Source: CBDUXZ01 sp965371325 [NCBI: uncultured bacterium]
GTDB lineage: Bacteria; JAUYMQ01
Length of the DNA: 6,657 bases
Assembly (NCBI GenBank): GCA_965371325.1
Contig: CBDUXZ010000105.1
Coordinates: 1 to 6,657 of the forward strand
Reading direction: 5' to 3'
A program made the position numbers and the translations under genes. The notes under the pieces are model-generated. The model was not told where the DNA came from. It was given only the letters and a program-made list of their open reading frames with translations, and made no database searches. Position 1 is the first letter of the stretch, and the number at the start of each line of letters is the position of its first letter. Of this stretch, positions 1 through 3,978 are shown one piece after another.

Positions 1-370
1 CCACGGAATGGTACGGTCCGATCGAAACGGGTGCCTCCCGCATTATTTCCTGAATGCGAACCCGATCGAGGGCTCCCTCATCGCGCCCCTCGATTGCATC
101 CTGAATCGGGCGAGACAGGAACAGATGTGTGCCGCAGCCGCAAAGAATGCCGATAAGCCGGTCCCCCTTCAGGACGGGAAAGTAGGGCGTCTTTGCGGAT
201 CTCAAAAACTTGATGGCCTTCCTGATGCTGTCGTCCACCTGGAGGGTCCAGACCGGTGACTGCATCACGCCTAGCACGGTTTTCGAAGACGTTATCGGGC
301 TCGTCTTTCCCCGCGAGGCTTCCCCTTCCTTTGCACGCTCGTCCGTCATACCCGCACCCCGGAAACCCAT
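1..370 (-). CDS. CBS-domain protein, 3' end cut off by the window edge
   Basis: This reading frame is open from an ATG at 370 down to the left edge with no stop, so about 123 residues are visible. Residues from about 35 (VMQSPVWTLQVDDSIRKA) to about 77 (TPYFPVLKGDRLIGIL) read as a CBS motif: a VMxxPV-type start, a DDSI helix cap, and the PVLKGDRLIGIL strand. A second CBS motif starts near residue 105 (RIQEIMREAPVSIG) and is cut off. Paired CBS motifs form a Bateman module, which commonly senses adenine nucleotides; whether this one does is unknown. Cys77 and Cys79, with His82, sit in an unusual CGCGTH stretch after the first motif. The start is supported by a GGAGGGGG ribosome-binding sequence about 8 bases upstream; an in-frame ATG at 349 is weaker. 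A sigma-54 promoter lies about 80 bases upstream, so transcription is probably controlled by the neighbouring NtrC-type regulator. Any domain beyond the second CBS motif cannot be seen. Confidence 0.85.
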   Translation of the reverse strand, partial: MGFRGAGMTDERAKEGEASRGKTSPITSSKTVLGVMQSPVWTLQVDDSIRKAIKFLRSAKTPYFPVLKGDRLIGILCGCGTHLFLSRPIQDAIEGRDEGALDRVRIQEIMREAPVSIGPYHSV

Positions 371-450: not shown

Positions 451-465
451 GCAACTCACGTGCCA
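451..465 (-). promoter_or_regulatory. Sigma-54 (-24/-12) promoter of the CBS-domain gene
   Basis: On the minus strand the sequence is TGGCACGTGAGTTGC. It has the full TGGCAC -24 element, a 5-base spacer and the TTGC -12 element, giving the invariant GG-N10-GC spacing of RpoN promoters. It points to the CBS-domain gene. The expected transcription start is near 439, leaving an untranslated leader of about 69 bases before the ATG at 370. Two dyad sites lie upstream at about -76 and -117. Confidence 0.85.
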
Positions 466-507
466 TACGGGTTTTTCACGGGAAATCCGGGGATGGTCAT
501 GCTTCCT

Positions 508-522
508 GCGCAGACGCTGCAC
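508..522. promoter_or_regulatory. Possible activator (UAS) half-conserved dyad, proximal
   Basis: The minus-strand sequence GTGCAGCGTCTGCGC is an imperfect dyad. It matches the stronger site at 549-563 at 11 of 15 positions. Its centre is 41 bases from that site, close to four helical turns, and about 76 bases upstream of the predicted start of the CBS transcript. Spacing and resemblance suggest a second dimer site for an NtrC-type activator. It does not contain the exact GCAAATnnTGC core, so the call is tentative. Confidence 0.4.
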
Positions 523-548
523 AACCCACCATGTACATTGCTACCTTC

Positions 549-563
549 GCGCAAATGTTGCGC
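549..563. promoter_or_regulatory. Probable activator binding site (UAS), perfect dyad
   Basis: GCGCAAATGTTGCGC is a perfect inverted repeat (GCGCAA / TTGCGC, 3-base spacer). It is centred about 117 bases upstream of the predicted sigma-54 transcription start of the CBS-domain gene. The same GCAAATnnTGC core recurs twice upstream of the regulator gene's own sigma-54 promoter (2263-2277 and 2292-2306). Sigma-54 activators bind dyads of this size about 80 to 200 bases upstream. The likely ligand is the response regulator encoded at 622-2043, whose gene begins after the site; that assignment is inference. Confidence 0.65.
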
Positions 564-621
564 TTTTACGCTATTGCTTTAATCGACTTCGGGGGCAGGG
601 TCCGGCGGATAGGGCCGGCGG

Positions 622-2043
622 TCAGGAACTCTTTTCGTTTTCGACCCGACCGTATTCCTTGAGGCGGTAGTAAATTTTTCGGGGCGAGATTCCGAGCAAC
701 TCTGCGGCACGCGGGACATGTCCGTCGACGGCCTCCAGGGTTCGGAGTATAAGTTCCCGCTCCGCGTCGTCCAGTTTGACGCCGGGCGTAAATTCGAGGT
801 GCCTGTCGGACCCATCAGGCTCTCGCGCCAGCTCCGGCAGGTTCTCCCGCGTGATCCGCTTGCCCGCCGCCAGAACGACCGCGCGTTCGATGATGTTCTC
901 AAGCTCCCGAATATTCCCGGGCCAGTTGTAGCGGATTAGATCCTGGAGCGCGGTTTCCTCAACGCCCGTTACGTCCTTCTCATTTTCGGACGCGTATTTG
1001 CGAATGAAGTGATCGCCAAGCGCGGGAATGTCTCCCTTCCGCTCCCGCAAGGGGGGAAGGGCAATCTGGATGACGTTCAGGCGGTAATAGAGGTCTTCCC
1101 GGAAAGTCCCCTCCTCGATGAGATGTTTCAAATCACGATGGGTAGCCGTTACGACGCGGACATCTAGCTTCAAAACATCGTTTCCCCCCACGCGCTCCAC
1201 CTCGCGCGATTGAAGGAACCGAAGAAGCTTGACCTGCGTTGCAGCCGGAATTTCGCCGACCTCATCCAGAAAAAGCGTTCCCCCGTCTGCCAGCTCGAGG
1301 CGTCCTCGGCGCCGGGCAACCGCCCCCGTGAAGGAGCCCTTTTCATGCCCGAAAAGCTCGCTCTCTAGCAGGGTTTCTGTAAGGCTCGCACAGTTGAGCA
1401 CGACGAAAGGCTGATCTTTACGGGCGCTGTGCTGATGGATTGCCTCGGCGACAAGCTCTTTCCCGGTTCCAGTCTCTCCGGTAATCAGGATGTTCGATCG
1501 GCTCGGCGCGACCTGCTCCACAGTCTTGAAGACCAGCTGCATCTGGGGACTGTTTCCGATGATGTTTTCAAAGCGATACTTCTGATCGAGCCTCCTCCGT
1601 AACCCGCGGGTCTCCTCGACCAACCGTCGGCGTTTGAGGCATCGCTCGATGGTGATCTGTACTTCCTCGAGGTTGACCGGCTTGACGAGGTAGTCTTCGG
1701 CGCCGAGCTTCATGGCCTCCACGGCTGTTTTGATCGTTCCGAAGGCCGTCATGAGAACAAAACGCAAATCGGGATCCACCCCGAGCGCCTTGCGCAGAAG
1801 ATTCAACCCATCGAGCCTCGGCATCTTGAAGTCGGAGAGCACCACCTCCGGCGCCTCGGACTGAACCTTCTCGAAACCCTCGACACCATCGGCGGCTACG
1901 GACACGGCGTAACCGTCCTCAGCGAGAATTTCGGCAAGCGCCTCCCGGGGTCCCTTTTCGTCCTCGACGACGAGAATTCGCCCCATCCGGGCCGCTGCGC
2001 TCTTGTTCAGATCCTCCGGGACTGCGATGGGCCTACCCTCCAT
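622..2043 (-). CDS. Sigma-54-dependent response regulator, NtrC family
   Basis: This is a 473-residue activator that uses ATP hydrolysis to open sigma-54 promoters once phosphorylated. A receiver domain (about 20-137) has the acidic pair E27/D28, phosphoacceptor D71 in LSDFKMP, switch T99 and K121. The AAA+ domain (about 159-400) has Walker A GETGTGKE at 189-196, the sigma-54 contact loop as GSFTGA at 236-241 (usually GAFTGA) and Walker B TLFLDE at 256-261. A Fis-type helix-turn-helix (about 426-464, [20 protein letters not shown]) ends the protein. All residues needed for phosphorylation and ATPase activity are present. I chose the ATG at 2043 because GAGG lies 8 bases upstream. An in-frame GTG at 2112 (496 residues) has GGAGGT about 12 bases upstream, and an ATG at 1986 sits right at the receiver but has no ribosome-binding site. 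A sigma-54 promoter, an IHF site and two dyads lie upstream, so autoactivation is likely. No sensor kinase gene is adjacent. The exact ortholog (AtoC, ZraR or another) cannot be told. Confidence 0.96.
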
Positions 2044-2053
2044 CTTCCCACCC

Positions 2054-2119
2054 TCAACTGCATTGCGTGCGTAAGCTGACAACGACCACTCCCCCCGGAG
2101 CGCAACGGGCACATCTCAC
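2054..2119 (-). other. Possible 21-codon leader ORF before the response regulator
   Basis: A GTG at 2119 lies only 5 bases after the strong ribosome-binding sequence GGAGGT (2130-2125). It opens a 21-codon frame (MRCARCAPGGVVVVSLRTQC plus S) ending in TGA at 2056-2054, ten bases before the ATG at 2043. Spacing to this GTG is better than to the in-frame regulator GTG at 2112. It could be a translated leader coupled to the regulator, or the ribosome-binding site may simply serve the 2112 GTG. No homology is recognised. Confidence 0.2.
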
Positions 2120-2154
2120 CGTTTACCTCCGGAATTGAACGGTATAGTTATGCA

Positions 2155-2169
2155 GCAAACTTCGTGCCA
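2155..2169 (-). promoter_or_regulatory. Sigma-54 (-24/-12) promoter of the response regulator gene
   Basis: The minus-strand sequence TGGCACGAAGTTTGC has a complete TGGCAC -24 element, a 5-base spacer and TTGC at -12, again with GG-N10-GC spacing. The predicted start is near 2143, about 13 bases before the GGAGGT ribosome-binding sequence. Because the downstream gene itself encodes a sigma-54 activator, this implies positive autoregulation or control by a related activator. Confidence 0.85.
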
Positions 2170-2195
2170 CGCAGCGAGGGTTGTCTATCCGTCTC

Positions 2196-2208
2196 TAACT
2201 AGTTGATA
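2196..2208 (-). promoter_or_regulatory. IHF binding site, perfect consensus
   Basis: The minus-strand sequence TATCAACTAGTTA fits the IHF consensus WATCAANNNNTTR at every position. A run of six adenines (minus strand, complement of 2217-2222) lies just upstream, as at strong IHF sites. The site is centred about 59 bases upstream of the predicted sigma-54 start and between the promoter and the dyads at 2263-2306. This is the standard place for IHF to bend DNA so that a bound activator can touch the polymerase. It also contains the 8-base palindrome AACTAGTT. Confidence 0.7.
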
Positions 2209-2262
2209 GTTCACCATTTTTTGTAAGGCTCCCAGACGCCACAGGATGGCAGCCGAGAAGTA

Positions 2263-2277
2263 CCGCAAATTATGCAA
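2263..2277. promoter_or_regulatory. Probable activator binding site (UAS), proximal
   Basis: CCGCAAATTATGCAA matches the perfect dyad at 549-563 at 10 of 15 positions and contains the shared core GCAAATnnTGC. Its centre is about 127 bases upstream of the predicted sigma-54 transcription start of the response regulator gene and 29 bases from the next dyad. It is probably one of a pair of activator dimer sites. Confidence 0.5.
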
Positions 2278-2291
2278 CAAGTAGTGGAGAA

Positions 2292-2306
2292 GTGCAAATA
2301 TTGCGC
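2292..2306. promoter_or_regulatory. Probable activator binding site (UAS), distal
   Basis: GTGCAAATATTGCGC matches the dyad upstream of the CBS-domain gene (549-563) at 13 of 15 positions and is itself nearly palindromic. It is centred about 156 bases upstream of the predicted sigma-54 start of the response regulator gene, beyond the IHF site. The close match between two separate sigma-54 promoter regions is the main evidence that both are controlled by one protein. Confidence 0.6.
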
Positions 2307-2353
2307 GAGCCCAGTCTGCAGGTCAGCTCCCCGGGAAGCCCGCGAGCCCCCGA

Positions 2354-3946
2354 TCAGGACCGCCTTGCGCCCTTGGCGAGGGGCGCCAGCGTCCTGTCGA
2401 CGCGGCGACGCAGAAAGGCGGCCGTGCGTGTCGTATCCAGAAATGTCACCACTTCCGGGCGCAGCTCCCGGGGCGGGTCGTGCTGTTTCCGTTGCTCGAG
2501 GTAAACGCGCCAGCTTCCGTCTGAAATCGAGGGTCGCCCGCGGCGGATCCCGAGGCGCTGCCGAATAACTGCCGGAGGGGCATCGCACCAGAAAAAATGC
2601 ACCGGCACCCCCAGGCGGCCGGCCAGCTTCGATACCGCCACACGATCATCCCGGCGCTGAAAAGTGCCATCGAGGACCACGGGTCGCCCCGCGCGAAGAA
2701 GCCCCGTAGCTTCCCGCATCACCGCGCGCATCGTGGCGCGGCGGTGCGCGGGGGCGTAAAGCCCCCTCCCGACACCGGGCGATACCGCAGCGTAGGGGTC
2801 GATACCGGCCGTGAGTTTTCGCAGAACGTCCGTGGCCACCCACTCGAGTCCGTACCGCCGGACGATGTCGCGCGCGATCCGCGTCTTCCCCGTCCCCGTG
2901 AGTCCCCCCATGACGAGAAGGGCCGGCCCTCCGCGCCATCGGGCGATCCGTTCCGCCAGGCGAACGTAGCGTTGCGCCCTGCCCGCGCTCGACTTCCGAA
3001 TGTCTCGAGGTACCTCGGTCTCTTCAGACAGAAGGGCGTTTACCTTGGCGCGCACCAGCGCGCGGTAAACCTTGTAGCAGGGGAGAAGTCGCGGGAGTTC
3101 CGGATCGCCCAGGCGCCGGGAAAGGATCCTTATGAAGTGCCGCGAGAGGTCATGGCGGTCACGCGCATCGAGATCCATCGCCAGGAAGGCCAAATCACGC
3201 GCCACGTCGCCGGTGCGAAAGCGCCTGGAGAACTCCGTCCCGTCAAGGATCTCCACCTCTCCGTTCACGTAGATGTGGGCGAGATGAAGATCGCCGTGCC
3301 CCTCCACCGCCCTCCCCTCCCGCGCCCGGCGGCGCAGCAGCGACGCCTGCGCCTTCAGCGAGGACTCGCTCCAGGCTCGCAGGGACGAGAGGACCTCCGC
3401 GTCAAAAAGGCTCCCGGAGAACTTCCCAAGAACGAGGAAGTTGTCGCGCACAAGCCGCGCGATAGCTTCCGGCCCGATGTCCGGATCTCGGGGTCCGAGC
3501 CCGACCGTCCTGTAGAAACGCGCGAGTCTGTCGGCAACCCGGGCTATACGCGGATAGTCGCCGGGGCCTCGACGAAGGCGGCGCCCGAGCAGGCGGTAGT
3601 CTGGCACGCGCTTCATGACAACCGCGTACTCGATGACCGCGCCACTCCTCCCCCCCACAACGGGTTTGCCCCCCTCCATCGCGATGGGGATCACGCCGAG
3701 ATACACCCGCGGCGCGAGCCGGCGGTTGATCTCCACCTCGACGCGGCACAGCCGCCGCCTCTTTGCGAGTGTCGAGAAGTCGGCGAATCCGAGATCCACC
3801 GCCTTCTTGATCTTGTAGACGCGGTTGTGTGTGAGGAAAACGTAGGACAGATGCGTCTGAACAAGGCGCACACGGGAGGGATGATCGGGAAACGCACGCG
3901 AGCACAAGAGCGTGCGAATGAGGGAAATCTGGTCCATGAGATCCAT
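2354..3946 (-). CDS. Fused aminoglycoside-phosphotransferase-like / P-loop kinase protein
   Basis: This 530-residue protein matches the two-part family often annotated as bifunctional aminoglycoside phosphotransferase/ATP-binding protein. The N-terminal half (about 1-330) is kinase-like: VYKIKKAVDLGFADFST (from about residue 43) and an NRRLAPRVYLGVIPI stretch are family signatures. HGDLHLAHI at 217-225 is the catalytic loop, with D219, and ILDGTEF around D235 is the metal-binding position. The C-terminal half (about 340-520) is a P-loop kinase with Walker A GGLTGTGKT at 347-355 (K354) and VVLDGTF around D426. The substrate is unknown, and the name does not imply antibiotic resistance. Both active sites look intact. 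It follows the aldehyde dehydrogenase gene by about 50 bases and is probably cotranscribed with it. The ATG at 3946 was chosen because an in-frame GTG at 3967 lies inside a hairpin; neither has a clear ribosome-binding site, and an ATG at 3937 is also possible. Confidence 0.9.
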   Translation of the reverse strand: MDLMDQISLIRTLLCSRAFPDHPSRVRLVQTHLSYVFLTHNRVYKIKKAVDLGFADFSTLAKRRRLCRVEVEINRRLAPRVYLGVIPIAMEGGKPVVGGRSGAVIEYAVVMKRVPDYRLLGRRLRRGPGDYPRIARVADRLARFYRTVGLGPRDPDIGPEAIARLVRDNFLVLGKFSGSLFDAEVLSSLRAWSESSLKAQASLLRRRAREGRAVEGHGDLHLAHIYVNGEVEILDGTEFSRRFRTGDVARDLAFLAMDLDARDRHDLSRHFIRILSRRLGDPELPRLLPCYKVYRALVRAKVNALLSEETEVPRDIRKSSAGRAQRYVRLAERIARWRGGPALLVMGGLTGTGKTRIARDIVRRYGLEWVATDVLRKLTAGIDPYAAVSPGVGRGLYAPAHRRATMRAVMREATGLLRAGRPVVLDGTFQRRDDRVAVSKLAGRLGVPVHFFWCDAPPAVIRQRLGIRRGRPSISDGSWRVYLEQRKQHDPPRELRPEVVTFLDTTRTAAFLRRRVDRTLAPLAKGARRS

Positions 3947-3947
3947 G

Positions 3948-3978
3948 CAACCCCAGCCGGGCGTCACCGCCGGGGTTG
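3948..3978 (-). repeat. Inverted repeat between the dehydrogenase and kinase genes
   Basis: CAACCCC (3948-3954) and GGGGTTG (3972-3978) are perfect 7-base inverted repeats. Between them the transcript could also pair GGCG with CGCC around a GTGA tetraloop. There is no following T-run, so it is not a standard intrinsic terminator. It lies immediately before the ATG at 3946 and covers the alternative GTG at 3967. It could affect RNA processing or translation of the kinase gene, or be chance in GC-rich DNA. Confidence 0.4.

Follow-up and report, generated by a model that had tools for sequence, protein, structure and literature searches.

Paired sigma-54 promoters and a shared dyad operator suggest a self-activating NtrC-family response regulator

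The analysed stretch of 6,657 nucleotides (hereafter the window) comes from an uncultured bacterium and carries the gene of an NtrC-family response regulator (622–2043, minus strand), and both gaps flanking this gene hold an exact sigma-54 (−24/−12) promoter together with copies of one dyad operator. The promoters, their conservation in the closest relative and the enrichment of the operator in genomes bearing the regulator lead us to propose, with good confidence, that this sigma-54 response regulator, presumably phosphorylated, binds the dyads and activates its own gene and the neighbouring gene of a CBS-domain protein, and that the operator is used clade-wide in response to a signal that is likely low oxygen or low energy.

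Promoters and operators flanking the regulator gene

The promoter of the CBS gene, TGGCACGTGAGTTGC (451–465, minus strand), and that of the regulator gene, TGGCACGAAGTTTGC (2155–2169, minus strand), match TGGCAC-N5-TTGC exactly and point toward the next gene, as the initial annotation of the window had reported. The exact motif occurred at a mean of 0.008 copies per dinucleotide shuffle, and none of 1000 shuffles held two copies. Both promoters and the dyads are kept in the only close relative found, a locus (L001) in a metagenome-assembled genome (MAG; G001) labelled Deltaproteobacteria, whose regulator is 80% identical and whose gene order, AAA_33 ATPase, regulator and CBS gene, is the same. 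Fourteen of the 15 bases of the CBS promoter and 12 of 15 in the regulator promoter (TGGCATGATGCTTGC in L001) agree between the two, compared with identities of 44% and 50% in the gaps outside the elements.

The initial annotation had also described an operator with the core GCAAATnnTGC at 551, 2265 and 2294. These coordinates are correct and are the only exact occurrences in the window; allowing one mismatch, 5 matches were found against 0.98 expected, a count reached in 2 of 200 shuffles. A dyad is indeed shared by the regions upstream of both promoters, but the spacer AT differs in L001, and the alignment with this relative gives the operator as a 15-bp dyad, GCGCAA-N3-TTGCGC, with a free spacer. 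Sites were scored with a matrix built from other genomes, excluding those of the window and L001, in two versions: a first selection of 17 sites, which omitted six of the 17 distinct sites from the clade-genome pattern search described below, and then all 23. The main operator of the CBS promoter, a perfect dyad GCGCAA-ATG-TTGCGC (549–563), had the top score (20.6 and 19.6 with 17 and 23 sites, respectively), followed by GTGCAA-ATA-TTGCGC upstream of the regulator (2292–2306; 17.3 and 16.4) and a second operator of the CBS promoter, GCGCAGACGCTGCAC (508–522; 11.6 and 13.0), which had been overlooked. With the 23-site matrix, the first score was reached in 1 of 1000 shuffles, and no second-best or third-best shuffle score reached the second or third, respectively. 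All three sites lie inside the two gaps, which make up 7.4% of the window. Of the three copies first placed in enhancer positions, those at 549 and 2292 thus rank first and second; the third, at 2263–2277 (5.1 and 5.4), is weak: it ranks fourth, fifth and seventh across three scorings (seventh with 23 sites), and its score was equalled by the third-best site in 481 of 1000 shuffles. Because the dyads of the window and L001 had served to seed the site-finding patterns, agreement in the core is partly by construction.

Among the dyads, the bases matching L001 number 13/15 at 549, 12/15 at 508, 11/15 at 2292 (TTGCAAAACTTGCAC in L001) and 9/15 at the half-conserved 2263 (GTGCAAAGTCTGCTT). Alignment windows equal to or better than the element numbered 3/287 for the promoter, 8/287 for dyad 549 and 23/287 for dyad 508 in the CBS gap, and in the regulator gap 9/322 for the promoter, 30/322 for dyad 2292 and 114/322 for dyad 2263. 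Conservation is thus strong for both promoters and dyad 549, modest for 508 and 2292, and not significant for 2263. Counted from the presumed transcription starts, the operator centres lie near −117 (549) and −76 (508) at the CBS promoter, where 41 bp separate the strong site from the weaker one, and near −156 (2292) and −127 (2263) at the regulator promoter, which has one good site and a doubtful one 29 bp closer. These presumed positions, about 75–160 bp upstream, are ordinary enhancer distances, and the operator-to-promoter spacing in L001 is similar. The sole exact match in the window to the IHF consensus (2196–2208, minus strand) stands between the operators and the regulator promoter; its conservation in L001 is not clear, and it is a possible bend, on weak evidence.

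The protein encoded at 622–2043, whose open frame runs on to a GTG at 2112, matches the Pfam models PF00072, PF00158, PF25601 and PF02954. Its receiver (PF00072, 89.5 bits) has the phosphorylatable Asp and conserved Lys (VVLSDFKMP, DYLVKP); its AAA+ domain (PF00158, 246 bits) has the Walker A motif GETGTGK and a sigma-54 contact loop, GSFTGA, a one-letter variant of GAFTGA that recurs in 5 of 8 other rows of its clade inspected; and a Fis-type helix-turn-helix domain (HTH_8; PF02954, 50.1 bits, cut-off 22) closes the C-terminus. Domains, motifs and clade membership all identify an NtrC-family sigma-54 response regulator, in agreement with the annotation, which had assigned it a sigma-54 promoter of its own and placed a second before the CBS gene. 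The regulator scores below the cut-off of every NCBIfam model listed (25 of the 109 matched); the nearest among those listed is AtoC (NF008469, 503.4 bits, cut-off 714), and NtrC proper (TIGR01818) gave 425.4 bits (cut-off 558.6). No kinase adjoins the regulator in the window or L001, by Pfam and open frames. The circuit had been called self-contained, a description that is not supported as worded, because the retained Asp and Lys make an unseen kinase probable and because the same operator precedes many genes in relatives.

The predicted target, the CBS gene (2–370, minus strand; Pfam CBS, 29.7 bits), is truncated at the window end. Its L001 homologue is a full-length protein of 164 aa (55.8 bits over two stretches), whose best match is MJ1225 (E 1.1e-13) and whose match to Rv2626c is weak (E 2.6e-6). 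All six genes of the window are on the minus strand. Upstream of the regulator, here and in L001, is the gene of an AAA_33 ATPase whose N-terminal part is long (2354–3967, minus strand), which we take to be reminiscent of the mycobacterial Rv2004c type; the others encode an aldehyde dehydrogenase, a leucyl/phenylalanyl-tRNA transferase and, truncated at the opposite end, a serine acetyltransferase-like protein (all minus strand).

The operator in the regulator clade and across genomes

Fourteen rows named beforehand by recognition helix and identity grouped together (support 99/97) when 37 regulators were placed in a tree, although the tree tool places long rows, L010 included, unsurely. These rows are the window, L001, ten acidobacterial or related sequences, a proteobacterial MAG (L010) and one from genome G025, and they share the helix S.RK[IV].Y[KR]LK[ED][YF]. 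In 9 of the 14 loci, Pfam shows the gene upstream of the regulator to encode a histidine kinase, the window and L001 having none adjacent and the Pfam test covering all loci but L176, L179 and L180; the kinase is of the GAF type in L002–L006, L177 and L178, of the Protoglobin type in L010 and of the solute-binding-PAS type in G025, where the kinase frame begins at a contig end (L137). At nine of the 14 loci, among them the window, a dyad and a sigma-54 promoter stand in front of the gene or operon that encodes the regulator itself. The promoter reads TGGCAY-N5-TTGC in the window, L001, L177, L178 and L179, and is weaker in L005, L006 and L180 (GGGCGC-N5-TTGC) and in L010 (CGGCAC-N5-TTGC), those of L005, L006 and L010 having been found by eye. 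Conservation of dyads and promoters at orthologous genes, on which the annotation had staked its proposal, is therefore seen in L001 and in much of the clade.

We then counted a combined pattern of dyad and promoter (GCARNNNYTGCR, 13–72 bases, TGGCAYNNNNNTTG) genome-wide. Twelve clade genomes gave 18 matches (17 promoters) compared to 0 for the reversed control, and 12 related genomes lacking a close regulator gave 1 match compared to 2 reversed. Among 198 relatives of G149, 17 matches fell in the 10 regulator-bearing genomes and 35 in the other 188, while the reversed pattern, tallied by hand from the result table, occurred 31 times across all 198 and not once in the 10. Presence of the regulator was set at E ≤ 1e-142 with eight candidates scored per genome, so that some regulators were possibly missed. 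Genomes with a match made up 7/10 of the regulator-bearing and 27/188 of the others (Fisher p = 0.0002); the per-match value was p ~4e-10, or 5e-7 after dropping four previously known matches (three own kinases and one pyruvate:ferredoxin oxidoreductase, PFOR), and since the genomes are related these p values do not come from independent trials. The operator follows the presence of the regulator across genomes.

G001 served as a stand-in for the window's own genome. A phylum-wide search around G001 turned up G001 alone, and across 145 of its relatives only G025, among the matches listed, has another regulator above 52% identity (58%). G001 holds 26 exact sigma-54 promoters, compared with 7 for the reversed pattern, suggesting that sigma-54 is widely used in this organism; within 350 bases upstream of these 26, a good dyad was found only at the CBS promoter. 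Single dyads in G001 also stand before a HemN-type gene (L162, 1880) and a gene without Pfam match (L146, 1436), where the promoter matches are weak, making these possible minor targets. No kinase of the L177 type was found in G001 at E ≤ 1e-40, a search blind to other kinase types, since G151 holds the L010 kinase yet gave none.

Behind the 17 pattern promoters are the regulator's own kinase in three cases (recognised in L186 from the start of the gene alone), hypF in four cases from three genomes (two by Pfam and two by near-identical starts; the two promoters in G149 may stem from a single locus that was assembled in duplicate), a membrane gene of the sulfur-transport family in two, and unnamed genes in two (L189, L199). 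One promoter each leads to PFOR, a universal stress protein (USP), PPK2, an iron-sulfur protein, a TonB-like protein and a PAS-LuxR regulator. Scoring or inspection by eye added PFOR and an Hsp20 gene in L177, and PFOR again in L003. PFOR in L002 was assigned by similar size and upstream sequence, and a NapC/NirT-type cytochrome gene stands behind the operator in L005 (Pfam), L006 being arranged alike. In L010 the Protoglobin kinase gene comes after FixG, FixH and cation-ATPase genes. Beside the regulator in L178 is a gene resembling lxa_BCAM0308 (90.7 bits, under the family cut-off of 100); lxa is described as a low-oxygen-activated locus of Burkholderia cenocepacia (PMC9733578). Taken together, the genes named here point to low oxygen or limited energy, which we consider the likely signal of the regulon. 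For the window itself, where the regulator and the CBS gene are the sole predicted targets, a low-oxygen role would follow by kinship.

Two further observations concern the same loci. In L178 (2332–2475), two weak dyads 30 bp apart, with a poor promoter match, precede the BCAM0308-like gene, which is divergent from PFOR. Exact sigma-54 promoters also occur at 9793 in L005, 9701 in L006 and 7355 in L180, the downstream gene in L005 being glutamyl-tRNA reductase (hemA); no dyad of this family was found at these three promoters at the thresholds used.

Proposed mechanism and alternative explanations

In the mechanism we propose, a kinase encoded elsewhere presumably phosphorylates the regulator, which would then bind the GCGCAA-N3-TTGCGC dyads about 75–160 bp upstream of both −24/−12 promoters and loop to the sigma-54 polymerase, its AAA+ ATPase opening both promoters. 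The regulator would thereby raise its own level by positive feedback and switch on the small CBS-domain protein, and such self-activation would make a steep switch. Activation of both the regulator and the CBS gene is very probable on the anatomy, conservation and enrichment described above. The clade would use the same operator in Acidobacteriota and in the proteobacterial MAG, mostly as kinase-regulator pairs, and the operator would there govern genes for hydrogenase maturation, PFOR, stress proteins and electron carriers, which it precedes.

Several results weigh against this mechanism or narrow it. Five of the 14 clade loci lack a clear operator before their own operon (L002, L003, L004, L108/L137 and L176, that of L176 being doubtful). 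In G001, YGCAA-N3-TTGCR dyads occur at 19 places compared to 18 for the control, which is no excess, and the combined pattern finds the locus alone, with no further strong targets. When the gap was set to 73–130 bases, the 12 clade genomes gave 7 matches compared to 2 reversed; the G001 locus accounts for two of these 7 and the PFOR site of L177 for one. The counts include every matched site, whether it lies between genes or not. Three of the 10 regulator-bearing relatives (G146, G147 and G148) have no pattern match; L002 (G146) and L003 (G147) nonetheless show a dyad and a weaker promoter before PFOR. The low-oxygen function is based on gene names in relatives. Finally, in L005, L006 and L180 a stretch of merely some 20 bp separates the dyad from the −24 box, too short for ordinary looping, and the regulator may act differently at these three loci.

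The dyads could instead be bound by a different factor, either a repressor or a second enhancer-binding protein, with the present regulator acting elsewhere, in which case the shared operator would reflect mere co-regulation of both promoters. NtrC-family paralogues are indeed many per genome, G001 alone holding 8 matches at E ≤ 1e-100, and in G025 a similar dyad adjoins an unrelated activator. Such a factor would have to account for the presence of the dyad before the gene or operon of this very regulator at 9 of 14 clade loci, and for a genome-wide pattern that tracks the regulator, and we regard it as rather unlikely. The G025 site in question (L139) was considered as a site of the present regulator and rejected because it adjoins that activator. 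It combines a TTGCAA-N3-TTGCAA dyad with a weak sigma-54 promoter (1501–1602; frame 1599–3044) and is flanked on one side by the divergently read gene of the activator, a sigma-54 activator of PAS type, and on the other by a gene of iron-sulfur type (gene kinds by eye); it probably represents a separate local circuit whose operator is similar.

It is unlikely that the promoter-near dyads are repressor sites through which the regulator damps its own operon, activation proceeding via other sites. The distance of about 20 bp in L005, L006 and L180 is compatible with this, as is a further dyad in L005 and L006 that abuts a promoter-like sequence (by eye), before the NapC/NirT-type gene in L005. 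The window sites, however, lie at −76 to −156, with similar spacing in L001, and sigma-54 promoters require an activator anyway. Chance resemblance of two functionless gaps is highly improbable: copy 2263 is by itself no better than random, but shuffling did not produce two exact promoters, a dyad matching 549 by matrix arose in 0 or 1 of 1000 shuffles, and both the conservation in L001 over its 44–50% background and the enrichment in 10 regulator-bearing of 198 genomes would go unexplained.

Comparison with known systems

This kind of system is already known. In Desulfovibrio vulgaris, 36 sigma-54 regulons are reported (PMC4641369), and the genes of several activators there neighbour sigma-54 promoters, which is the same kind of arrangement as here; neither TTGCGC nor GCGCAA occurs in its main text, its motifs standing in figures and supplements, nor in the passages of PMC3333781 covered. 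In the literature covered, which leaves figures, supplements and most subscription journals outside its scope, no description of the clade-wide operator or regulon was found, and papers on the lxa and DosR loci (PMC9733578, PMC6127331, PMC9104464) provide background only.

AtoC of the AtoSC system of Escherichia coli is likewise a sigma-54 response regulator and corresponds to the nearest NCBIfam model among those listed. Its verified sites, GCTATGCAGAAATTTGCACA and GCTATGCAGAAAATTGCGCA, pair GCA with TGC 6 bp apart (PMC3118216); the operator described here pairs the same elements 5 bp apart. AtoC acts mainly on atoDAEB, which does not appear in the present set of targets. NtrC of the NtrC/NtrB system has the same domain order and paired distal sites before sigma-54 promoters, but its GCACCA-type half-site is unlike GCGCAA. 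HupR and HoxA, sigma-54 response regulators tied to hydrogenase genes, resemble the present regulator in that hypF is a predicted target in its relatives, whereas their TTG-N5-CAA site has the opposite orientation.

The DosR regulon of mycobacteria comprises similar kinds of genes (USP, Hsp20, CBS and AAA/phosphotransferase), although the CBS protein of L001 matches Rv2626c only weakly, as given above. As for a heme-based oxygen sensor kinase of the DosR type, the kinases seen beside the clade regulators include the Protoglobin kinase of L010 and the GAF kinases of seven acidobacterial loci, with none adjacent in the window or L001. We tentatively suggest, as a reading we hold with less than even confidence, that an undescribed sigma-54 regulon for low oxygen and energy saving extends across Acidobacteriota and some proteobacteria, in which the regulator clade and operator are fixed and the kinase differs between loci (GAF, Protoglobin, solute-binding-PAS, or no kinase in the vicinity), a sigma-54 counterpart of the DosR regulon, with the window representing a reduced, self-activating form. 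From DNA alone, a clade in little-studied bacteria gains a concrete operator, a list of predicted targets (hypF, PFOR, USP, PPK2 and CBS) and a probable signal. If the target list is true, hydrogen, pyruvate and stress genes would be placed under one sigma-54 switch, a DosR-like task performed by different transcription machinery, DosR being a LuxR-type regulator and the protein described here a sigma-54 AAA+ activator with a Fis-type HTH_8 domain.

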